IMG/VR virus record: IMGVR_UViG_3300024255_001495
Coordinates: 1 to 20,377 of that record
Direction: 5' to 3' (one strand)
DNA from: a virus
Length of the DNA: 20,377 nt
Shown here: positions 102-14,039 of the stretch, one piece after another
Numbering within the stretch: the first letter of the stretch is position 1
How the letters are laid out: each line of letters begins with the position of its first letter
The notes under the pieces: generated by a model
Told to the model about the DNA's origin: nothing
The model's input: only the letters and a program-made list of their open reading frames with translations
Databases searched by the model: none
Translations under genes and position numbers: made by a program

Positions 102-914
102 ATGGCAACGAATACAGGCTTATTTAATTTTCAGTCCATCATGAACCAATTCTATAATTGGAGTCCTGATGCAGACGATACTGCGGGTCAAGCACTGAAG
201 AATACTTTCTTGGCAGATAATGTTCAGACCGTGCTGAACAACCAGATGGCAAAGGATTTGGCATACACCAATGCTGAGATTGCGACTGGTCAAATGACTG
301 ATGCTGCAAAGCTTGAGTTAGCAAACACTTCCATAATCATGGGAGATGAGTTTAAATACGGCATGGGGAAGATGGGTGCTGAATTTGATTATCAATCTAA
401 GTTTGCTGTCGATGAAGCAAACCGTGGACTTAACGCTGCAGCACAAGCGGGTGATATCCAACAAGGTCAGACTAAGTTAGAAGGTGACCAGAACAGACTA
501 AATATTGCAACACAGGGTAGAGAAGAGCTCAAGCAGATTAATGCAACTGGTGATGAAGCGGTTCGTCAGGTAAATACTCAAGGCAATGTAGATATCAATA
601 AGATTGGTGCACAAGGTCAAGTCGATAAAGATAAGATCAATACACAAGGAAATGTAGACTTAAGCAAAATTGGAGCTCAGGGTGACCAAGATGTCCGTAA
701 GATTGATGCTCAAGGTTATATGGAACAAGCACTGACTAAAGTAAAAGGTTCAGAAGACCGTAAAACAATCATCGGTCAAGGTGACCAAGATGTTCGTAAG
801 ATAGGAGCAACAGGTAGTGAGGAACGTAAGAACATGATGCAACAAACAACGGAAGAAGGTAAAACAGCTGCAAGGCAGAGTAAGTATGCACGTGGCTTAG
901 CAGGAATGTTCTAA
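102..914 (+). CDS. Coiled-coil protein with ten 11-residue repeats, probable virion component
   Basis: This 270-residue protein has no family I can name. Residues 1-134 are polar, with few Pro and many Ala, Gln, Asn and Asp. Residues 135-244 are ten consecutive 11-residue repeats close to I-x-x-Q-G-x-x-D-x-x-K, for example IGAQGDQDVRK at 190-200 and IIGQGDQDVRK at 223-233. An 11-residue period suits a straight or slightly right-handed helical coiled coil. The C-terminus is basic (KTAARQSKYARG). The gene opens the packaging operon after a TAGAAT box and overlaps the next gene by TAATG. A fibrous tail, neck or internal virion role is inferred. ATG 102 is chosen because it fits the promoter spacing. 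Confidence 0.7.
   Translation: MATNTGLFNFQSIMNQFYNWSPDADDTAGQALKNTFLADNVQTVLNNQMAKDLAYTNAEIATGQMTDAAKLELANTSIIMGDEFKYGMGKMGAEFDYQSKFAVDEANRGLNAAAQAGDIQQGQTKLEGDQNRLNIATQGREELKQINATGDEAVRQVNTQGNVDINKIGAQGQVDKDKINTQGNVDLSKIGAQGDQDVRKIDAQGYMEQALTKVKGSEDRKTIIGQGDQDVRKIGATGSEERKNMMQQTTEEGKTAARQSKYARGLAGMF
504..833 (+). repeat. Ten tandem 33-bp (11-codon) hendecad repeats
   Basis: The codons for residues 135-244 of the 102-914 protein form ten uninterrupted 11-codon units with no insertion between them. Two units, near 682 and 780, are almost identical at DNA level (both contain ggtgaccaagatgt), which points to duplication within the gene. Others have diverged but keep the I/V-x-x-Q-G-x-x-D pattern. 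Confidence 0.8.
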
Positions 915-1762: not shown

Positions 1763-3301
1763 ATGGCAGTCCCAAGTGTTGCTTTAGCTTATAGAAGAAC
1801 GGCATTAATGAATGCCACTAAAGTAACAGTAAAACCACCATCACCTGAAGTATTAAAAGCAAGAGATAACTTTCAAGATTTCTGCGTATTAATGGGTAAG
1901 AAGCCAGCCAACCATATGTTGGAATGGCACGCCGAGCTATGCACAGGTGTTGATAGTGAATGTCTACTGGGAATTGGTGGACCTAATACAGCAATCCTTG
2001 CCCCACGGGGTTCAGCTAAATCAACAGTCCTTGGATTGTTTGCAGCATGGATGATTGGTAGACATACAGCTGCCAAGCAAATGCTACGAATACTGTATAT
2101 CGCCTATATGGTTGACATCAGTAGAGCTAAAAGTGCAACTATCAAAGGTATTTTAATAAGTAATAAATACCGTGAAATCTTTCCGATGGTGAGATTATCA
2201 AAAATTAAACGTTCAGATGAATACTGGAGTATTGACTATGACTTTGCAGGAATTGATACAGCAGGTGAAGAGGCGTTTACCATTGCGTGTGGAGGTCTCA
2301 AAGGAGCCATTACTTCAAAACGGTCACAATTGGTGCTTATCGATGACCCTATTAAATCCGCTGCGTCCATTAACAACCCAGACATTAGAAGGGAGATGGA
2401 GCAAACGTGGTCCAATGTCATTGCACCTACTATGTTCCAAGGAGCACGAGCTATATGTTTGGGAACTAGATTCCACTTTGACGATATCCATGCAACACTT
2501 TTTGTTCCCAAAAACAACTGGAAACAAATTATCCAGAAAGCTGTCATAACAGACGCAGAAGGTAGACAACGTTCGTATTGGCCAGAGTTCTGGTCTATGA
2601 AATACTTAAACGAACGCAAGATGGAGAACCGTGTTGCATTCGCATACCAGTATCTCAATACAGCAGTTCAATCAAGTGACGTTGGTATCTCACCAGACCT
2701 AATTGTCAAAGGCGAAGTCCCAGAAGATTATGACTGCCTAGGCGTCGGCATTGACCTTAGTGCTGGACTGAACGAAAAGAACGACTGGACTGTCTTCACG
2801 TTAGGTGGAATTAAGGACGGAAAGATATTCCTGATTGACCAGCGTAGGGTCAAGAGTATGGGAAACCTAGAGAAGATGGATACGCTGTGCGAAATGTTAG
2901 CTGACTGGAATGTGGTGCTTGAAAACGATGAGGGTCAATACTTCCCAACGATGTCACCGTGCATGATATGGCCAGAAGCCGTTGCCTACCAGTCATCATT
3001 TGAAGGCGACTTCAAACGTGTGATGTTTGAGCAACGTGCTCTGTATAACCTGAGCTGCTCACCAGTCAAAGGGTTTAAAGGTGACAAGCTTGCAAGACTA
3101 CGTGGAGTGCTTGGCCTGTATGAACACCGTAAGGTTGTATGGAACAAGTGGCGTAAGTGGAACATCCTTGAGGATGAACTCATCAACTTCGGACATTCGC
3201 CACATGATGACGCAGTGGACTCAATGGTGCTGACGATGGGCGGACTACTTAGACGTGGGGCTCTGCATTTGGAATATAACGAGAGTGCAATGGAGCTTTA
3301 A
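1763..3301 (+). CDS. terL: Terminase large subunit (ATPase and nuclease)
   Basis: This is the packaging motor that pumps DNA through the portal into the procapsid and cuts the concatemer. At 512 residues it is of normal length for the family. Residues 80-88 (APRGSAKST) are the Walker A loop. Residues 189-196 (QLVLIDDP) are Walker B with acidic D194-D195. Residues 231-243 (ICLGTRFHFDDIH) match the coupling motif. The C-terminal RNase H-like nuclease shows D331 in GVGIDLSAG, a candidate E405 in WPEA, and D482/D483/D486 in HDDAVDS. Both halves look intact. The gene sits downstream of the candidate small subunit and has its own TAGACT box. No frameshift or intron is seen, and ATG 1763 is the first start in the open frame after that box. 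Confidence 0.93.
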   Translation: MAVPSVALAYRRTALMNATKVTVKPPSPEVLKARDNFQDFCVLMGKKPANHMLEWHAELCTGVDSECLLGIGGPNTAILAPRGSAKSTVLGLFAAWMIGRHTAAKQMLRILYIAYMVDISRAKSATIKGILISNKYREIFPMVRLSKIKRSDEYWSIDYDFAGIDTAGEEAFTIACGGLKGAITSKRSQLVLIDDPIKSAASINNPDIRREMEQTWSNVIAPTMFQGARAICLGTRFHFDDIHATLFVPKNNWKQIIQKAVITDAEGRQRSYWPEFWSMKYLNERKMENRVAFAYQYLNTAVQSSDVGISPDLIVKGEVPEDYDCLGVGIDLSAGLNEKNDWTVFTLGGIKDGKIFLIDQRRVKSMGNLEKMDTLCEMLADWNVVLENDEGQYFPTMSPCMIWPEAVAYQSSFEGDFKRVMFEQRALYNLSCSPVKGFKGDKLARLRGVLGLYEHRKVVWNKWRKWNILEDELINFGHSPHDDAVDSMVLTMGGLLRRGALHLEYNESAMEL

Positions 3302-3346: not shown

Positions 3347-4924
3347 ATGGGTTGGTATCAACGTGAACAAGAGAGTAATGCACGAATAGCACGTGAAAAA
3401 CAAGAGCAAGCTGCTGCTCAAGCTAAGAAAGACCAGCAAGCTGCTGCACGTGACCAATTAGTTGGTAGCTGGCAAGATTTATATAACACTGGTGGTGACC
3501 AAGCAGTAGCAGACAATATTATTACCAACTATTCAGCTGAAGGTAGTTCTTATACAGCACAAGACTTAGCAGATGCTAAAGCAGTTAAAGAAGGTAAAAC
3601 CTTTCAAGAAGTAAGCTCAGCTAAAACTGACGCAGCCTACAAACGATACAACCAACTCTTTGGTAGCAACAGAACAAGATATGGGCCTCAAGGACAACTT
3701 GTTACTCAAATAATTACATGGGATGATTGGAGTAAGAACATACAAAAGTATGATAACTTCAGCGGATACGTAGACCCACAAATTCAAATTGACAAAGATA
3801 AAGCAGCTGCTGATAAGGCGGCAGCAGATAAAGCGGCAGCAGATAAAGCAGCAGCAGATAAGGCGGCAGCAGATAAAGCAGCAGCAGATGCAGCAGCCAA
3901 ACGTCAGGCTGACCTTGATGCAGCTCAAAGGCAAAAGGATGCAGCAGCTCAGGCTGCACTAAACAAGGAGCCAGCTCCTACTCCTCAAGCTCCGGTTAAA
4001 AAAGAAACACCAATAGAAGAAGCTAAAGGCCGAGCCGAAGAATATACAAACACAACGACTAAAGAGGGTAATACAATCACCAACAACATTACTCAGAATG
4101 TTGGAAACAAGGGAGATATGAAAACTGACATTGGGGATGATAATACAATTACAAACTCAGAAATTGGTAATGACAGCAGTGAGAATACTGGTAACATAAA
4201 TGTATCAAATCAACAAATAAATAAAGATACTCAAGAGTCACAGCAGAACAAAGCACGAGAAGAAGCAAAAGAGAGAGCAAAAGAATATAAGAATAAAAGC
4301 GACAAGAATACAAATACAGTGACTAATAACATTGAACAGAACGTTGGTAACAAAGGGGATATGACAACGGAGATTGGGAATGAAAATACAATTACTAACT
4401 CACAAATTGGTAATGACAAGAGTGAAAACAATGGCAACATAAATGTTAACAACCTGCAACAACAAGAGGAAACAAAAGCATTTAGGTCAGATTTGCTAAA
4501 TAGATTAGGCTCGTTAGAAGCGCAAGAAACTCAAAGAGCTGCCGATAAAAAAGCTGCAGCAGATAGAGCAAAGGCAGAACAGGCAACAGCAGCTGAAGCT
4601 CGGGCACAGCAAGAAGCTGCAGCTAAAGCTCAGGCACAGCAAGCAGCAGCCGATAAAAAGAAAAAGGACAAAGATGATTATGTATGGGGCTTAGTAGATA
4701 AAAGAGCTGACGCTTATAGGGCCAACGCAGATTACAGAGTAAGTAACGGAAACACCACAATTAATAATTCATATAGAGTAAATAATGATTTTCTACAAAA
4801 TACAGGAAACAAAGGCAACATGACTACAAGCTTCGGCAATAACAATAAGCTGAACAATGTTAGAGCTGGAAATGACTACAGCATCAACTTAGGGAATATC
4901 AACAGTTCAAACTACTCAATGTAG
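3347..4924 (+). CDS. Low-complexity protein with three helix-beta modules, probable virion appendage
   Basis: This 525-residue protein belongs to no family I recognise. Residues 1-40 are a charged Ala/Gln-rich helix. Residues 41-148 look globular (aromatics, WDDWSK). Residues 151-180 are six DKAAA pentapeptides, with further Ala/Lys/Gln helices to about 205. Modules follow at 224-286, 305-367 and 448-520. Each begins with a short helix (such as EEAKERAKEY) and continues with an Asn/Gly-rich stretch with the core QNVGNKGDM and IGND. A second Ala/Gln-rich coiled-coil region lies at 395-440. The modules recur once in each of the next two genes. Helical stalks alternating with Gly/Asn beta repeats suggest a fibre or decoration. 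The position between terminase and portal fits a structural role, but this is inference. Confidence 0.7.
   Translation: MGWYQREQESNARIAREKQEQAAAQAKKDQQAAARDQLVGSWQDLYNTGGDQAVADNIITNYSAEGSSYTAQDLADAKAVKEGKTFQEVSSAKTDAAYKRYNQLFGSNRTRYGPQGQLVTQIITWDDWSKNIQKYDNFSGYVDPQIQIDKDKAAADKAAADKAAADKAAADKAAADKAAADAAAKRQADLDAAQRQKDAAAQAALNKEPAPTPQAPVKKETPIEEAKGRAEEYTNTTTKEGNTITNNITQNVGNKGDMKTDIGDDNTITNSEIGNDSSENTGNINVSNQQINKDTQESQQNKAREEAKERAKEYKNKSDKNTNTVTNNIEQNVGNKGDMTTEIGNENTITNSQIGNDKSENNGNINVNNLQQQEETKAFRSDLLNRLGSLEAQETQRAADKKAAADRAKAEQATAAEARAQQEAAAKAQAQQAAADKKKKDKDDYVWGLVDKRADAYRANADYRVSNGNTTINNSYRVNNDFLQNTGNKGNMTTSFGNNNKLNNVRAGNDYSINLGNINSSNYSM
3797..3886 (+). repeat. Six tandem 15-bp repeats encoding DKAAA
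   Basis: Six consecutive 15-bp units of the form gataargcrgcwgcw encode DKAAA six times, followed by a degenerate DAAAK unit. The units differ only at third codon positions, typical of a young tandem array. They encode a continuous charged alanine helix. Slippage here could change the length of the helix in steps of five residues without breaking the frame. Confidence 0.85.
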
Positions 4925-4976: not shown

Positions 4977-5582
4977 ATGGGATTAAATACTGGAGCTGTA
5001 GGAGCCGATAGAGGCAAACCCGGAGAAGGTTCCGTAGATTATTATGGCCATGCTGATTACGAAAGAGACAAGCGTGCAGGCATCAGTGATGCAGATCTGC
5101 TAGCTAAAATCAATGCTGACCCAAGCAAAATGGGCAACGGCGGTGTAGGTGGAGATTTATATAGACAAATTCAAGCAGGCGCTAAGTCAGGTGGCGGCGG
5201 AGGTGGCGGTGGCGGTGGCGGTGGCTACTCAGGTGGAAGTGTAGGTGCTGGTGCTGGTTCATATAGGCCACCAGCTGTGAACTTCAACCCAGGCGGAATC
5301 GACATGGGTGGTGGCATGGGTGATAGTGGACCAGTATGGGATAACGATGATTTTATCCGTGGCCTAGCAAAAGAACGAGCTGAATCATTTACTGAAAGTG
5401 GCAGCACTAGCCAAAGCAACAGCATTACCAATAACATTGAACAGAACGTTGGCAATAAAGGCGACATGACAACAACTATTGGAGACGGCAATACAATTAA
5501 TAATTCTTCAATTGGTAACGATTACAGCTTAAACATGGGCAGCATTAACGTTGCCAATAGTCAAAGAAATCTTGCCTTATAG
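4977..5582 (+). CDS. Glycine-rich protein with one C-terminal helix-beta module
   Basis: This is a 201-residue protein in three parts. Residues 1-70 look like a small helical domain (HADYERDKRAGISDADLLAK, then DLYRQIQAGA). Residues 71-119 are flexible, with an uninterrupted run of twelve glycines (72-83) and further Gly/Pro-rich sequence. Residues 126-192 are one copy of the module shared with both neighbouring genes (GLAKERAESF, QNVGNKGDM, IGNDYS, SINV). The arrangement reads as a docking domain, a flexible linker and a shared beta module. It has its own TAAAAT box, and the next gene follows after nine bases, so the two are probably co-transcribed. Function unknown; a virion surface or neck part is my inference. 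Confidence 0.7.
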   Translation: MGLNTGAVGADRGKPGEGSVDYYGHADYERDKRAGISDADLLAKINADPSKMGNGGVGGDLYRQIQAGAKSGGGGGGGGGGGGYSGGSVGAGAGSYRPPAVNFNPGGIDMGGGMGDSGPVWDNDDFIRGLAKERAESFTESGSTSQSNSITNNIEQNVGNKGDMTTTIGDGNTINNSSIGNDYSLNMGSINVANSQRNLAL

Positions 5583-5591
5583 AGAAAACAA

Positions 5592-6356
5592 ATGAGCAAC
5601 TACGGACTCGACTTAAATAAAATTAAAAAGAAATTTAAGCAGTATCAGCAACCTGAATCACCTCAGATGTTTGCAGGGGGTAATCCTAATTTTGATGAGA
5701 AGAGTGGAACAGATAAAAAGAAGCCTAAAGGTAAAGTCACTAACTTTCCTGCTGATGCTGTAACAAATGAGCGTCCTCCAGCAGGTTCTTACAAAAAATC
5801 AGCGCAGCAGTTCAAAACAGACTATGCGAATGATTTAACAAGATACATGAACAAAAAGGGTGATACAACGACCAATACAACCAGTACTGAAACCAATAAC
5901 ATTGGCCAAAATGCTGGCAACAAAGAAGATATGACAACTAATATCGGTGACTATAACGACATTAAATACTCTAATATTGGCAATGATTACAGTGTCAATA
6001 TTGCTGGTATTGGTGATGGCTTCAGCAATATGCAAGGTGCTGCTGCTTATACAGCACTAAACAATAATCAGCATGCAAGGTCAAGTAGTGAAACCAATGG
6101 AATAAAACGTGCTGCTCAAGCATCTGAACAGGCAACAGGCTTGGTTGGAGCTAAAGACCGTGCAGCGAATTTGTATAACAGCCTTGGTTATTCACAGAAC
6201 TACTGGCGACAGAAAGCTGATGCACAGCAGAACTTCTACTTAGGTGATATTTTCGCACAGAAGGCACCTGATTTCCAGATGCCTGAATCACCTTCAGACC
6301 CAATGGATAATGATACAACGAAGGACTCAGTGAAAAAGTTCGAAGATAGTCTGTAA
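5592..6356 (+). CDS. Unknown protein with one divergent central helix-beta module
   Basis: This 254-residue protein starts with a lysine-rich segment (IKKKFKQYQQ). Residues 75-140 carry the most divergent copy of the shared module: helix (QFKTDYANDLTRYM), TNNIGQNAGNKEDM, TNIGDYND, then NIGNDYSVNI. Unlike its neighbours, which end on a module, it continues for over 100 residues that look helical (AAQASEQATGLVGAKDRAAN, then NYWRQKADAQQNF) and finishes in an acidic tail. No SD is obvious, and it lies nine bases after the previous gene with no TANAAT box of its own. The gene order up to the portal suggests a structural role. No known family is recognised. Confidence 0.7.
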   Translation: MSNYGLDLNKIKKKFKQYQQPESPQMFAGGNPNFDEKSGTDKKKPKGKVTNFPADAVTNERPPAGSYKKSAQQFKTDYANDLTRYMNKKGDTTTNTTSTETNNIGQNAGNKEDMTTNIGDYNDIKYSNIGNDYSVNIAGIGDGFSNMQGAAAYTALNNNQHARSSSETNGIKRAAQASEQATGLVGAKDRAANLYNSLGYSQNYWRQKADAQQNFYLGDIFAQKAPDFQMPESPSDPMDNDTTKDSVKKFEDSL

Positions 6357-6400: not shown

Positions 6401-8665
6401 ATGTCCAACAATAGCACTCAGTTTCAAGAGATACTTAACGCAGCTAAAGAGAAGAGAGGTGACTTACCTGTAGACACAATGATTGTGTCATCACACCTTG
6501 CTCAAATGCGTCTGTTTATCTTGAGACGTGGTGTTGAGTTTTTCTGTGACCAGGATTCTTACGCAGGACGCCGTGAATTCATAAAAGGAGTTTACGAAAG
6601 CAATATGCTTGAAATGAAGCTTGACAGCATCATTGATTATTTCTTGTGTGATGGACAAGGTTTATTCTATTTCAGGCCATCAGGAGATACCTATCAGATT
6701 CTATACTTCCCGAAAGATAGCTACAGATGTTATAGAGACCAGAATGGTGATATTGAACATGTAGAGCTTATCTATACGTTTGCTGTGAAAGAGCCACATA
6801 TGATGGATGCGTATGCTGTGCCTAATAAGCGTGGCGGACGTAAGAAGTATATAAAACTAAAAGTCTATAAAGACCGTATCGAGCAGACAATCTCAAACGA
6901 AAAGATTGACTTCGAGAATGGCACCAATGCAATGACCATGCAGCAGCCAGGTCAAACAGAAACACTGAGCAACAGCCTTGGTTTCATTCCTGCAGTTGAA
7001 GTCTTTAATCACTTGGATTGCACTGGCGAATCAACAGGGGTAGGTGAGTTTGATTGGATGGCTAATCAAATCCTGTTCCACGATGAGCTTGTACGTAACG
7101 TCCGTAAGAACATGAAGTTCTTCGGTAACCCCACACTGGTATCCAGCCGTCCACGTCACGACATTCTTGAAAGTGGTGATGAAGGTGCAATGCGTCCAAC
7201 CATTAGCTCACAAGCTGGGTTCTATGCAATGGATAGGCCAAGCACACGCACAAGTCAGCCAGGCTTCAGTGCTGGTATCGATGGACAAATCAAAGTTCCA
7301 CGTGTAATTGCAAACCTTGAGCCAACTGACCGTGTGTCCTATATGACACCTGATGCTGTCAGTGGTGACCAGAACATGTACGTCAAACAGTACAGGTCAG
7401 AAATTCGTCTAGCACTTGGTGGAGTAGATGACCTTGACTTCAACATGGCATCTTCTGCTTATGAGATGAAGTCTCTGTATGGCAGATGTGCAGCAACTGC
7501 AGAGAAAAAAGCAAAGGCATTGTTCGAGTATGGACTGTGCAAATTATTTGCAATGATGATTCAGCATGAAGAATATTTGTTTGAACAATCTTTCGCCACA
7601 GCAATGGGGCTTACAAATCCTGAGCCAGTTCTACAAGAGCAGTATCAAGACCCTGCTGAGTTTGAACAAGCACAAAAGATTTATCAGCAAGAACAGCAAA
7701 AGTTCCTTGATACAAGGGCACAATTGTTTTCTGCTAGTATTGAGTCAGGTCAAATACCTAATGGGGTTACTGGTTTAATCCCAGATGGCAGCAGCAAAGT
7801 TAATTGGCGCTGGACCGGGGAGATTTTCGAAGAGGATTCTCAAGGCATTCTAAATAACAGTATTGTCGTTAGAAACCTACAAGAATTAGGTGTCGATTCT
7901 ATTGAAGCACTTAAGTATCTCTTCCCTAGCAAAACTGATGAAGAACGTGCTGCCATGTTGACTGGATTCCCATTCAGGATGGTTCAACAATCTCAACAAG
8001 CTTTTAATTCATTCATAGGGATGATTGGTCAGTTATATCAGCTGCCACATCCACAAATGCCCAATCAGCCATTAGCGGCTGACCCGAATCTTGATATCAC
8101 AGGATTCCTATATAGATCACTCGAATTTTTACGTAAGGAGTTAAGTTACAGTGGAAAGTACCAGCCCGACAATGGCGACAGCGCCATCAGCAAGCTCAGC
8201 GACGCCGATCGTAAGCGCTCCCAGCTTGGCCTCCCCACACGGGATGAGCGCCCCGTCCAGTTACCAGGCAGCTCCTCAAGTGGCTCCGGTGGGTTCAATG
8301 GCCTACCAGCAAACGGCGGCCCCGCAGGCTTCGGCGGCCCCGGCAGCAGCAGCGAATCCATGGCAGGAAGCGTTCCAGGCACTCAGCGCAAGCCTGAATA
8401 CGCCTCAAGCCTCCCCGGCCCAGGCGTCATACTCGGCGTATCAGACGCCAACAACTCAAGCCAGTACCCAGGCCAGTTGGGGCTCACCCGCGCACCAGCA
8501 ATGGGCGAGTCAGGCGCAGCAGACTTACGCTCCCCAAGCTTCAACCCAGGGTTATTCGGCCCAGGAGCTCAGCCAAATCCAGCAGCTGGTGGCTCAGCAG
8601 CAGCACGCGGCTCAAGCGCAGGCTCAGGCTCAGTATCTAAGTCAAAGTCAAAGCGCTCCAAGTGA
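6401..8665 (+). CDS. Portal protein with a long Gly/Ser/Pro tail read over the next gene
   Basis: The portal forms the dodecameric ring at one capsid vertex through which DNA enters and leaves and to which the tail joins. Residues about 1-580 read as a phage portal: an N-terminal alpha/beta part, a segment near 205-245 (CTGESTGVGEFDWMANQILF, then DELVRNVRKNMKFFGNP), the region PTDRVSYMTPDAVSGDQNMY, and long helices (SLYGRCAATAEKKAKALFEY). At 754 residues it is long for the family. The excess is residues 584-754, a Gly/Ser/Pro-rich, probably disordered tail ending SKSKSKRSK. This tail lies entirely inside the overlap with the scaffold-like gene, where base composition turns markedly GC-rich. 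The fold assignment is by pattern and gene order. Confidence 0.85.
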   Translation: MSNNSTQFQEILNAAKEKRGDLPVDTMIVSSHLAQMRLFILRRGVEFFCDQDSYAGRREFIKGVYESNMLEMKLDSIIDYFLCDGQGLFYFRPSGDTYQILYFPKDSYRCYRDQNGDIEHVELIYTFAVKEPHMMDAYAVPNKRGGRKKYIKLKVYKDRIEQTISNEKIDFENGTNAMTMQQPGQTETLSNSLGFIPAVEVFNHLDCTGESTGVGEFDWMANQILFHDELVRNVRKNMKFFGNPTLVSSRPRHDILESGDEGAMRPTISSQAGFYAMDRPSTRTSQPGFSAGIDGQIKVPRVIANLEPTDRVSYMTPDAVSGDQNMYVKQYRSEIRLALGGVDDLDFNMASSAYEMKSLYGRCAATAEKKAKALFEYGLCKLFAMMIQHEEYLFEQSFATAMGLTNPEPVLQEQYQDPAEFEQAQKIYQQEQQKFLDTRAQLFSASIESGQIPNGVTGLIPDGSSKVNWRWTGEIFEEDSQGILNNSIVVRNLQELGVDSIEALKYLFPSKTDEERAAMLTGFPFRMVQQSQQAFNSFIGMIGQLYQLPHPQMPNQPLAADPNLDITGFLYRSLEFLRKELSYSGKYQPDNGDSAISKLSDADRKRSQLGLPTRDERPVQLPGSSSSGSGGFNGLPANGGPAGFGGPGSSSESMAGSVPGTQRKPEYASSLPGPGVILGVSDANNSSQYPGQLGLTRAPAMGESGAADLRSPSFNPGLFGPGAQPNPAAGGSAAARGSSAGSGSVSKSKSKRSK
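8134..8140 (+). promoter_or_regulatory. Strong Shine-Dalgarno site inside the portal gene
   Basis: TAAGGAG lies ten bases before a GTG at 8151, within the portal coding sequence. It is one of the best SD sequences in the window. It fixes GTG 8151 as the start of the scaffold-like gene and argues that the long overlap is real. Confidence 0.8.
8151..8665 (+). other. 515-bp dual-coding overlap (portal tail / scaffold-like N-terminus)
   Basis: Two plus-strand frames remain open together for 171 codons, both end in ordinary gene features, and the inner one has its own SD. The bases are visibly richer in G and C than flanking DNA. Portal-frame codons end mostly in C (ggc, agc, ccc, gcc) because that base is the second codon position for Ala, Ser and Pro in the inner frame. 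Composition returns to normal shortly after the portal stop at 8665. Confidence 0.8.
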
Positions 8666-9197
8666 TTCTTACCTCAGCCAAATCTCTGACGTAAGCCTTG
8701 AAGTTCTTGAGCACTTTGGTGCTGAAGCTCCTGCTCTGCTTAATCACTACGCATGTGCAGTAGAAGACGCCCTAATTGAACAGGTCGGACGTAACGGCAC
8801 AATGAACTTGATGCTTGATGCAGCCTCTGAAGAGCGTGCTGCAATGAACATCATGCTCACCAATCCTGACGTCCTTGCTGATTATGTGAACGGCTTCTTC
8901 GGTGCTGAAGGTCCTTATCCAACTCTGACTGCATCAGAGAAAGCACAAGTTGCAGAGTATCGGATGCGTGAACAGTTTGCAAATGAAATTGCACAACAAG
9001 AAGAGCGTGGAGTTCCTACGAACTTCCAGCGTCCAGTAATGGATATGCCTACACCAGGTCGTGCACAAAGCGCAGCCAACTCTTTCTGGGGTGACTTCAG
9101 CCAGCTGATGGACAACAACCCTGAGAACGCATGGCAGTATCTGTCCGGTGCACCTGCTCAGGCTTTCCAAAGCAAGATGCTCGTTCAAGACTTCTGA
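8151..9197 (+). CDS. Probable capsid scaffolding protein, starting inside the portal gene
   Basis: This 348-residue protein starts at GTG 8151 behind TAAGGAG, in the +1 frame relative to the portal. Residues 1-172 are Ala/Gln/Ser/Pro-rich and probably disordered, and they match the stretch shared with the portal tail. Residues 173-348 look helical and globular (LSQISDVSLEVLEHFGAEAP, MLDAASEERAAMNIMLTNPD, AEYRMREQFANEIAQQEERG). A gene after the portal with a disordered half and a helical half fits a scaffolding protein, which guides coat assembly and then leaves the procapsid. The coat gene is unusually far away (12882), so another head protein is possible. A base-paired hairpin follows the stop. 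Confidence 0.6.
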   Translation: MESTSPTMATAPSASSATPIVSAPSLASPHGMSAPSSYQAAPQVAPVGSMAYQQTAAPQASAAPAAAANPWQEAFQALSASLNTPQASPAQASYSAYQTPTTQASTQASWGSPAHQQWASQAQQTYAPQASTQGYSAQELSQIQQLVAQQQHAAQAQAQAQYLSQSQSAPSDSYLSQISDVSLEVLEHFGAEAPALLNHYACAVEDALIEQVGRNGTMNLMLDAASEERAAMNIMLTNPDVLADYVNGFFGAEGPYPTLTASEKAQVAEYRMREQFANEIAQQEERGVPTNFQRPVMDMPTPGRAQSAANSFWGDFSQLMDNNPENAWQYLSGAPAQAFQSKMLVQDF

Positions 9198-10137: not shown

Positions 10138-11079
10138 ATGACATCAATCAAACTTTCAGGTGATTCTGTCCGAGCATATTTAAGAGATATCGGACGAATC
10201 CCATTGCTAGAGCACGAAGAAGAAATCTTGCTCGGTCGCAAAGTCCAACGTCTAATGGAGATTAAAGAAATTGAAAGCGAAATGGAAATTCAGAGCCAAG
10301 ATGATTTGGCTGGGATTCTTGGTATCCCTGTTAAGGACCTCAAGCGTCAACTAAGGGAAGGTGAGAAAGCTAAGGACAAAATGGTCACAGCGAACCTACG
10401 TCTGGTCGTTAGTGTTGCCAAGAAATATACCAAGCGCAATATGGAACTCTTGGACATCATTCAGGAAGGGACGATTGGTCTCGTCCGTGGTGTCGAGAAG
10501 TTTGACCCTGGTCGTGGCTATAAGTTTAGTACCTATGCTTATTGGTGGATACGGCAAGGCATCACGCGGGCCATTGCGGAGAAATCGCGGGCAATACGCC
10601 TACCAATTCACGTTACAGAAAACCTCAACAAACTCAAGAAAGCTCAACGGGAACTAAGTCAAATCAACGGTGAGATGCCAACAGTATTCCAGCTTGCTGA
10701 ATACCTGGAGTTCACAGTAGATGAAATTAAAGACTTGATGTGTAAGTCACGTCAGCCGACATCACTAGAAATCAAGATTGGTGAGAACCGCGATACTGCC
10801 CTAATCGACTTGCTTGAAGATGAAACACAGTTACCAGAGATGCTGCTAGAACGTCAGTCCATCAAAGAGAACATGCGTGAAATCATTCATGATCTTCCTG
10901 AGATGCAAGCAGCGGTGGTACGTATGCGATATGGCATCGGAGAAGAGATTTTAGAGCCAATGTCAATGACTGCAATTGGTCAAGTACTTAATATGAGCAG
11001 AGACCGTGTACGCACTTTAGAAAACAAGGCTATGCGTGCTATCCGTGAGCAATCTGAGAATTTGAACGAATATCTTTAA
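10138..11079 (+). CDS. RNA polymerase sigma-70 factor, cyanobacterial group 2-like
   Basis: Sigma factors direct RNA polymerase to promoters. This 313-residue protein has all major regions: 1.2 (residues 8-40, DSVRAYLRDIGRIPLL), 2.1-2.4 (about 78-155, with LDIIQEGTIGLVRGVEKFD and YAYWWIRQGITRAIAEKSR), region 3 (about 160-230) and region 4 with its helix-turn-helix (276-300, SMTAIGQVLNMSRDRVRTLE). Residues equivalent to E. coli Y430, W433, W434, Q437 and T440, which contact the -10 box, are kept. In region 4.2 the residues equivalent to E585 and Q589 are Asp and Thr, which could weaken or change -35 reading. It lacks the long N-terminal region 1.1 of primary sigmas. Its likely job is redirecting polymerase to phage late promoters. 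Confidence 0.93.
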   Translation: MTSIKLSGDSVRAYLRDIGRIPLLEHEEEILLGRKVQRLMEIKEIESEMEIQSQDDLAGILGIPVKDLKRQLREGEKAKDKMVTANLRLVVSVAKKYTKRNMELLDIIQEGTIGLVRGVEKFDPGRGYKFSTYAYWWIRQGITRAIAEKSRAIRLPIHVTENLNKLKKAQRELSQINGEMPTVFQLAEYLEFTVDEIKDLMCKSRQPTSLEIKIGENRDTALIDLLEDETQLPEMLLERQSIKENMREIIHDLPEMQAAVVRMRYGIGEEILEPMSMTAIGQVLNMSRDRVRTLENKAMRAIREQSENLNEYL

Positions 11080-12263: not shown

Positions 12264-12773
12264 TTAGGTATCACTTTCTTCTATTTTAACTGCTTTCTGT
12301 TTATCTCTGAGACGACGCATGTAGTCACGCTTTGATATACGTTGACGCTCCTTTGCAGCAGCAGCTTGTTCAGGAGTATTCTTAGGTCTACGTTGGTATT
12401 CACGCTTAGTATTATTCTCAGTCCAGCTAACCCATCGCAAATTCGATGCATCAGGATTAGTTTTATCTTCATCAATATGGTCAACGATAGTACATCCTTT
12501 TGCATTCCCATAAGGTGTAGGTGGTGGACCTAGAAATGCAAATGCAACAAGCTTGTGCACACAGACATCAAGTATTTTGCCTTTACCAATCCGCTGAGTC
12601 AAACATACTGTTGGATAACCAGCCTTATGTGGACGATGCTTTAGCAATCTATCTTTATTTTGCTTAGTAGATTTAACGTCACCTTTGCGATTTACATAGT
12701 ATTCAATACAAGCCTCAAACCCCGGCAATGTATGAACTGGAACCCATTCTTGTGTATCAATAAACCTTTCCAT
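12264..12773 (-). CDS. HNH homing-type endonuclease
   Basis: This 169-residue protein resembles free-standing phage HNH endonucleases, which nick or cut DNA and spread their own gene. Residues about 8-36 (EWVPVHTLPGFEACIEYYVN, then RKGDVKS) resemble a NUMOD4-type DNA-binding segment, with the usual Tyr-x-Val-Asn and Gly-x-Val-Lys-Ser. The HNH core runs from H73 (VHKLVAFAFLG) through D98-H99 (VDHIDEDKTNPDASNLRWVS) to the Asn residues near 105, 111 and 120. The C-terminus is very basic (KERQRISKRDYMRRLRDKQK), suited to DNA contact. It is on the opposite strand to the structural genes, just before the capsid gene, as expected for an inserted mobile gene. The residues look intact. Confidence 0.85.
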   Translation of the reverse strand: MERFIDTQEWVPVHTLPGFEACIEYYVNRKGDVKSTKQNKDRLLKHRPHKAGYPTVCLTQRIGKGKILDVCVHKLVAFAFLGPPPTPYGNAKGCTIVDHIDEDKTNPDASNLRWVSWTENNTKREYQRRPKNTPEQAAAAKERQRISKRDYMRRLRDKQKAVKIEESDT

Positions 12774-12881: not shown

Positions 12882-14039
12882 ATGTGGATTGACAATGACT
12901 TTCCCAAGCTTCTTGGTGCAGAACTTTACCGTCCTCATCCTGCTTACATCATTGAGATGGCAGTTGAGCCTGTGGTAGTACACGATTTCTCTAAGCAGCC
13001 TGGTCAGACCGTGCAGCTTGATCGTTACCGCTTCTGGGGTAAGCCAGGCACTAAGGAGTCCCGTGAGCGGACCGCCGACCAAACCCTCGGAACCGCTTCA
13101 GCTCGCAACATCGTCAAGGACAAAGTACTTGTGACTCTTCGTGAGTACACCGGTCCTGCCGATACCCGCGACAGTGCACAGCCTTCTACTTTCAAAGTTG
13201 CACGTGAAACCCTGATCACTGCTCAGCGTCTGCTGCTTGATACAGGTAATTTGAATGTATTTCACCAGTCAATCGGTAGCTTGACGCTGCTTGATGACTA
13301 TCGTCGTTGGCGTGACCGCGTCTTTGCAAACGAACTGCTTAAGGCTGAAGCCTGTGGCAAGTCCTCGAAAGAGCAAGGCGGTTACTACCTTCCCGGTGGC
13401 AAAGAAAAAGGCGTTGACACAACAGCTAATAACACCCTTGGTGTTAAGTATGAAGCTGGTGAGTCTGCCAAGTTCGATATCACTACCGACCTTCTCGAAG
13501 TTGTGAAGGACATGCGTAAGCGTAATGTTCCCACCTTCGCTGATGGTTACTACCGCTGTATCGTTGACCCCACGGCAATGATGCACCTTCGTCAGAATTC
13601 TGACTTCCGCGAGATTGCTCGCTATCCCGGCAGCGGCATGATTAACCCCATGCAGCCTAACCAAGCACCTAACGCCAATTTCTACCAAGGAATGGGTCCT
13701 GCTTATGGTCAAGCCGGTTTTGTGGCTGGTCAACCCGTTATGCCTACTGGCTTCCTCTTTGAGGGTGTCCGTTGGTTCGAGTCCACCAACCTTCCCGAAA
13801 CTAATTACGACCTGGTCATTACTGATGAAAGCGCTAGCGTCTCAAGCTACGCAGCTTCTCAGTTGATCTTCTTTGGTCCCCAAGCTGTTGGCGTGGGTAT
13901 CGGTGGTAATAACGCTCAGATTCTTCTGAACAACAATGATGACTTCTCACGATTCATCATTATGATCTGGAGTCTGTTCGCCGGATTTGAAACCCTGAAT
14001 AAGGATTTCATCACGGTTGGTTACTCTTTCGTATATTGA
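12882..14039 (+). CDS. Major capsid protein
   Basis: This 385-residue protein resembles HK97-fold coat proteins of the N4-gp56-like type and would form the capsid shell. Supporting features are the N-terminal arm region (YRPHPAYIIEMAVEPVVVHD), the segment GQTVQLDRYRFWGKP, a spine-helix candidate (FKVARETLITAQRLLLDTGN), DGYYRCIVDPTAMMHLRQNS, which matches the family pattern of a Gly-Tyr strand followed by a Pro and a helix, and a C-terminal strand-rich part (GFLFEGVRWFESTNLPE). Codon use is different from most neighbours, with many ctt, cgt, ggt, ttc, gac and ccc codons, as expected for the most highly translated protein. It has a strong SD. The next gene follows after 14 bases and both end at one terminator. 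Confidence 0.82.
   Translation: MWIDNDFPKLLGAELYRPHPAYIIEMAVEPVVVHDFSKQPGQTVQLDRYRFWGKPGTKESRERTADQTLGTASARNIVKDKVLVTLREYTGPADTRDSAQPSTFKVARETLITAQRLLLDTGNLNVFHQSIGSLTLLDDYRRWRDRVFANELLKAEACGKSSKEQGGYYLPGGKEKGVDTTANNTLGVKYEAGESAKFDITTDLLEVVKDMRKRNVPTFADGYYRCIVDPTAMMHLRQNSDFREIARYPGSGMINPMQPNQAPNANFYQGMGPAYGQAGFVAGQPVMPTGFLFEGVRWFESTNLPETNYDLVITDESASVSSYAASQLIFFGPQAVGVGIGGNNAQILLNNNDDFSRFIIMIWSLFAGFETLNKDFITVGYSFVY

Follow-up and report, generated by a model that had tools for sequence, protein, structure and literature searches.

How many proteins does the 3' end of this phage portal gene encode? The question is raised by a virus sequence of 20,377 bases (hereafter the window, meaning the whole stretch of DNA that was analysed), which comes from a marine relative of Synechococcus phage S-EIV1. 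A first-pass annotation of the window had proposed that the same DNA encodes, in two frames, the tail of the portal protein and a scaffold-like N-terminus. We compared this locus with its relatives, looking at the conservation of the two frames, the likely identity of their products and the selection that acts on each of them.

Geometry and conservation of the overlap

The features of the locus are listed in Table 1. The first 171 codons of the second gene, called here the inner gene, lie on the DNA of the portal tail, and are followed by about 175 codons that belong to the inner gene alone. The positions given in the first-pass annotation (Shine-Dalgarno (SD) sequence at 8134-8140, GTG at 8151, portal end at 8665, shared stretch of 171 codons) were exact.

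Table 1. Coordinates of the portal gene, the inner gene and related features in the window
Feature	Position	Strand	Basis or remark
Terminase large subunit (TerL) gene	1763..3301	+	phrog_38, E=3.4e-69
Portal gene, 754 aa (core 1-583, dual-coded tail 584-754)	6401..8665	+	ORF
SD TAAGGAG of the inner gene, within the portal gene	8134..8140	+	Conserved; clade-specific SDs outside the marine clade
Stop TAA in the inner frame, just 5' of the inner start	8142..8144	+	Sequence; excludes upstream read-in
Inner start codon GTG	8151..8153	+	Replaced by ATG outside the marine clade
Inner gene, 348 aa, probable scaffold	8151..9197	+	ORF; A/Q/S/P-rich N-half dual-coded, helical C-terminal domain
Dual-coding overlap, 515 nt, inner gene in +1 of portal	8151..8665	+	Open in 221/222 loci; purifying selection in both frames, from substitution patterns
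Inner-frame block with the strongest conservation in the overlap, NPWQEAFQALSASLN, residues 69-86	8355..8408	+	Predicted short helix 70-82
Conserved portal-frame block V658...E666...P672, P674, G675	8372..8425	+	Overlaps the DNA of the inner 69-86 block
Inner-only helical C-terminal domain	8670..9194	+	Inner w=0.05, fake portal frame 0.81; helices 180-347
Major capsid protein (MCP) gene	12882..14039	+	phrog_1357, E=6.8e-16; 66% identical to an unannotated S-EIV1 ORF

Viral contigs were scanned three times and genome contigs once; together with S-EIV1 and the window, this gave 222 loci in which both genes are present. These loci fall into three clades, with 44-58% identity of the portal core from one clade to another. 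Whether the portal, the inner protein or the MCP was used, the sole relative in a set of 50,697 phage records was S-EIV1 (KJ410740), a polar Synechococcus phage and the only isolate found for the lineage. Its TerL, portal, inner protein and MCP are homologous to those of the window (55, 44, 33 and 66% identity, respectively, the value for the inner protein being that of its C-terminal domain) and their order is kept. TerL was found upstream in 191 loci and the MCP downstream in 170, giving the order terminase - portal - ... - MCP. The lineage is a widespread, barely studied family of cyanobacterial phages, represented by hundreds of environmental contigs. Some contigs of these phages (L240-L252) were binned in metagenome-assembled genomes (MAGs) labelled Euryarchaeota, Bacteroidetes, Blastopirellula and others, so that the host assigned to a MAG contig of this type should not be relied upon.

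The overlap was kept in the +1 register, with both frames open, in 221 of the 222 loci. Its length ranged from 446 to 641 nt, and was 554 nt in S-EIV1. The sole exception (L222, 3250-4167) contains a non-triplet indel that breaks both frames and fuses inner-frame with portal-frame sequence, which is the mark of either an assembly error or a broken genome. In another locus (L008), the portal frame has a stop upstream of the overlap, the overlap itself being open. A sequencing or assembly artefact was rejected in view of the 221 concordant loci, S-EIV1 among them. The first-pass annotation had named stops or frameshifts confined to one frame in relatives, and an indel near 8150 merging the two frames, as observations that would speak against dual coding; what was found was 221 intact loci and one in which both frames are broken.

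In 217 of the 221 loci, an upstream stop in the inner frame ends only 3 or 6 nt (1-2 codons) before the inner start. Marine loci start with GTG, and those of the two other clades with ATG; each clade has an SD of its own before the start. The segment AAGGAG.TAAGTTACAGTGGA was invariant at the nucleotide level, synonymous positions included, over 49 marine homologues. The spacing between SD and GTG is 10 nt, which is longer than ideal. The inner gene has a strong SD, the portal start no clear one (weak).

Composition also sets the overlap apart. As previously noted, it is GC-rich only there (0.63-0.67, versus 0.35-0.53 elsewhere between positions 5500 and 11000 of the window), and in 216 of 216 relatives its GC content was higher than that of both flanks (means of 0.61, 0.45 and 0.51, respectively). 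A minus-strand ORF at 8146-8382 was discarded, as its length was not consistent among relatives.

In a single genome, the openness of the second frame is only moderately improbable, and one sequence proves little. When the portal gene was shuffled synonymously, the proportion of shuffles that left the inner frame open varied between genomes from 0.3 to 100% and was 1.7% in the window, while the portal frame stayed open in 0.2-11% of synonymous shuffles of the inner gene. Chance openness, though not excludable from one sequence, is excluded by the comparative tests presented below.

Several other genes of the window deserve mention. Three consecutive ORFs upstream of the portal gene (3347-4924, 4977-5582 and 5592-6356) have in common an Asn/Gly-rich repeat module, approximately NNIxQNVGNKGDMTTxIGDxNTIxNSxIGNDYSxNxGxI, which is present in three copies in the first ORF and in one copy in each of the others; a Pfam scan of ORFs 3347-4924 and 5592-6356 gave no match. 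The first ORF of the window (102-914) contains a short unit (KINTQGNVDLSKIGAQG-like) repeated in tandem, which points to a fibrous or coiled structure. A sigma-70 factor encoded by the phage (regions 1.2, 2, 3 and 4; 10138-11079), detected in 59 loci, is located between the inner gene and the MCP gene in the marine clade, and a homing-type HNH endonuclease with a NUMOD4 motif is encoded on the minus strand just upstream of the MCP gene (12264-12773).

Identity of the two products

The upstream product matched phrog_20475 ('virion structural protein, head and packaging') with E=2.4e-179. The portal family phrog_64 matched 24 of 60 homologues, weakly (best 4.8e-4), and a Pfam search with the window protein gave no match. 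In a fold search, all 24 PDB matches with E<=0.001 were portals, including those of 80alpha/SaPI1, T7, SPP1 and cyanophage P-SCSP1u; the AlphaFold model used was of low confidence (pLDDT 50). These exclusively portal fold matches, together with the weak phrog_64 matches, agree with the identity initially given to this gene, and its assignment as a portal is well supported by the fold search. The core ends near residue 583 and is followed by the dual-coded tail, rich in Gly, Ser and Pro and with basic residues at its end.

The AlphaFold model of the inner protein (pLDDT 57) is disordered over residues 1-135 except for a short helix (70-82), which is followed by a helix at 137-165 and by helices spanning 180-347. 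The N-terminal arm is rich in Ala, Gln, Ser and Pro, and a conserved helical domain starts at about residue 174. The earlier statement that the helical part begins where the portal stops is therefore only approximate, the model helix 137-165 lying within the overlap.

We call the inner protein a probable scaffold on account of its place between portal and MCP, its helical C-terminal domain and weak fold matches with scaffolding proteins. In the fold search, two scaffolding proteins ranked, weakly (E=0.064), after an entry of 133 aa, which from its length and identity is probably the shortened annotation of S-EIV1's own protein. The inner protein gave no confident match to any named family and none to a scaffold family in PHROGs, Pfam or NCBIfam, and profile comparison with the T7 and P-SSP7 scaffolds (hhalign) gave no match. 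Thus the designation 'scaffold-like' made in the first-pass annotation is supported by gene order and architecture, though not by membership of a known family in these three collections.

The absence of a family match would also be expected if the overlap were real but the inner protein were another protein of the head or neck, such as an internal virion protein, a portal-associated protein or a decoration protein. In the marine clade, several other genes are present between the inner gene and the MCP gene, small ones among them, and one of these could be the scaffold. Against such an identity, the MCP gene directly follows the inner gene (within 150 nt) in 18 loci, where the inner gene is alone between portal and MCP; furthermore, the predicted protein is helical with a disordered arm, and its named, weak fold matches are scaffolding proteins. 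A head or neck protein other than the scaffold is possible, though we think it rather unlikely.

Selection on the two frames

Further evidence on dual coding was obtained with a four-class substitution test, in which the single-base changes found in 49 independent close pairs were sorted by their effect in both frames. For each class, w, a ratio similar to dN/dS, is the rate relative to that of doubly silent changes, with bootstrap intervals. In the overlap, w amounted to 0.37 (0.28-0.50) for changes that modify the portal and are silent in the inner frame, and to 0.19 (0.15-0.25) for changes that modify the inner protein and are silent in the portal frame. In the portal-only control, w was 0.11 in the real frame compared with 0.80 in a fake inner frame; in the inner-only control, it was 0.05 in the real frame compared with 0.81 in a fake portal frame. 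Codon-position-specific constraint, which the first-pass annotation had proposed as a check, is therefore present in both frames of the overlap when compared with the 0.80-0.81 of unused frames, the inner frame being about twice as constrained as the portal tail. Judged from these substitution patterns, purifying selection acts on both frames, as the proposal of dual coding implied.

Changes that create stops pointed to the same conclusion. Portal-silent changes giving a stop in the inner frame were found at 2.5 of 122 sites in the overlap, versus 130 of 531 in the portal control, and inner-silent changes giving a stop in the portal frame at 2.5 of 450 sites, versus 138.5 of 379 in the inner-only control. 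In close pairs, differences at the third positions of portal codons (second positions of inner codons) were 0.15-0.29 times as frequent within the overlap as upstream of it, while those at the first positions (third positions of inner codons) were two to three times as frequent.

The most conserved block of the inner frame includes N69, P70, W71, A74, F75 and L82, each present in at least 95% of 59 homologues. In the portal frame, E666, P672, P674 and G675 are invariant in 60 homologues.

These data also bear on where the inner gene starts. The S-EIV1 record annotates only the 3' 133 codons of this gene, as a CDS that begins at 59863, past the portal stop at 59840, and so misses the dual coding. 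If this start were correct, the conservation seen upstream would have to reflect an RNA or DNA element, and the long SD-GTG spacing of the marine clade could be taken in the same sense. However, it is in the first quarter of the overlap that the inner frame tolerates nonsynonymous changes least, and an SD and a start codon are conserved in every clade. Moreover, sites that are synonymous in both frames evolve freely (0.31), which indicates that there is no general nucleotide constraint in the overlap, and the RNA fold around the inner start was ordinary (z=-0.10). A start downstream of the portal stop is therefore very improbable. An RNA structure at the inner start was also rejected as a feature in its own right, based on the same z value.

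We attach equally little credence to the idea that the overlap serves a +1 frameshift leading to a portal-inner fusion, with or without independent initiation. The +1 register and the continuity of the frames over about 170 codons would permit such a fusion, but the inner gene has a conserved SD and start of its own directly behind an in-frame stop, so that no frameshift is needed. Over the region surveyed in the 49 marine homologues, the long stretch free of nucleotide changes coincides with the SD and start, and no slippery site was evident in the overlap. Least credible of all, and already contradicted, is the view that one frame only is real, the other being a stop-free accident of GC-rich, low-complexity sequence with few stops: although the inner frame stays open in more than half of the portal-synonymous shuffles in some freshwater genomes, both frames show constraint when set beside the two controls, both are depleted of changes that create stops, and loci whose portal cores are 44-58% identical still have the open frames, the SD and the start.

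Expression, origin and comparison with known systems

The reading that we consider very likely is that of a bona fide dual-coding region, with internal initiation in the portal gene and a probable scaffold as the second product. One mRNA would carry the portal gene and, at the end of the portal core, an internal ribosome-binding site (RBS) from which the second gene is read in the +1 register. Initiation at the portal start would give the portal with its flexible Gly/Ser/Pro tail and basic end, and initiation at GTG 8151 a larger amount of the scaffold, with its disordered Ala/Gln/Ser/Pro arm and its helical, presumably capsid-binding domain. With some 500 nt between the inner start and the portal stop downstream of it, termination-reinitiation could not serve the inner gene, and ribosomes would have to initiate within the portal gene. 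The strong SD of the inner gene, compared with the lack of a clear one for the portal, would fit with a scaffold needed in larger amounts than the dodecameric portal, and the two products may be tied in dosage.

In solved portals, the C-terminal crown or barrel faces the capsid interior, which would place the portal tail inside the procapsid together with the scaffold. Both low-complexity arms would then be inside the procapsid, and their loose sequence requirements might make double coding tolerable. Disorder is indeed thought to ease dual coding (reviewed in PMC8227390). It is also conceivable, though doubtful in our opinion, that the portal tail and the scaffold arm bind each other and start procapsid assembly at one vertex, and that the overlap is kept for this reason. 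If so, the common DNA would lock the supply and the evolution of both arms together; unlike mere tolerance of disorder, such a partnership predicts correlated changes and direct binding.

Since it is present in all three clades, the overlap predates them. No homologous relative without the overlap, or with only one of the two frames, was found. A comparison of codon usage between the frames did not discriminate the direction in which the overlap arose (r of 0.26 versus -0.09; confidence interval of the difference, -0.14 to 0.74). The RBS of the inner gene is exactly at the end of the portal core, the usual place for the RBS of a downstream gene. This position, together with the stronger constraint on the inner frame, is a hint that the portal may have lost its stop and grown into the scaffold gene. 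The idea of overprinting formulated in the first-pass annotation, according to which one gene was extended into the other, would fit these observations. Phages Mae-Yong1326-1 and HTVC023P, which are relatives by TerL, have a portal gene and a next gene without long overlap; homology of these genes to the window pair was not detected.

The nearest architecture is that of the overlapped spanin gene pairs of tailed phages. In the lambda Rz/Rz1 and P2-type spanins, as here, two proteins acting in one process are encoded by a pair of genes of which the second begins inside the first, with its own start. Overlapped and embedded spanin genes are mostly in the +1 register, may extend past the stop of the first gene and are routinely missed by gene callers (PMC6139136). 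The present pair differs in that it encodes structural proteins (portal and probable scaffold) rather than lysis proteins, and in that its architecture is fixed in all three clades, whereas overlapping spanins coexist with separated versions.

The order portal, scaffold, MCP is also that of T7 (genes 8-9-10) and P-SSP7, and the predicted fold of the window portal resembles the portals of T7 and P-SCSP1u, though profile comparison with T7 and P-SSP7 disclosed no sequence similarity. The portal and scaffold genes are separated by a gap in T7 and overlap by 1 nt in P-SSP7, as opposed to about 500 nt here. Microcystis phage Mae-Yong1326-1 also has this order, with a Pro/Gly/Ala-rich portal tail and an Ala/Pro-rich N-terminus of the protein in the scaffold slot, followed by the MCP. 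In contrast with the present locus, the portal and scaffold-slot genes of this phage are separate, 67 nt apart, which indicates that tails and arms of this type also exist apart.

The first-pass annotation had described the overlap as far longer than usual; at 515 nt, it compares with a median of 14 nt (interquartile range 8-26) for +1 overlaps in virus genomes (PMC8903798). Long overlaps on one strand are uncommon and in most cases reflect annotation errors: in a survey of prokaryotic genomes, none of the co-directional overlaps of more than 60 bp was real (PMC2478687). A literature search, the coverage of which did not extend to the S-EIV1 genome paper, found no description of a portal-scaffold dual-coding region. 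The overlap described here is a real and unusually long one between two structural genes, a known kind of gene pair that is new in combining a portal with a probable scaffold. About 500 nt are common to two genes of head assembly in large tailed phages, with selection measurable in both frames. Being well sampled in nature, this pair lends itself to studies of how dual coding persists where genome space is not limiting, and of whether an overlap can couple assembly partners.

The analysis also corrects the annotation of S-EIV1, the only isolate and reference genome of the lineage, in which the overlap is absent. Two further observations were made on this genome. Its terminase (L002:3118-5658) contains an intein (Pfam Intein_splicing, E=1.4e-11), which splits the region matching the window terminase and is not found in the window copy. 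Its MCP gene (L002:9897-11048, corresponding to 60859-62010 of KJ410740; an ORF of 383 aa, 66% identical to the window MCP) is not annotated as such: in the record, most of this ORF is covered by a CDS on the opposite strand (60784-61545), and its 3' end by a short CDS.
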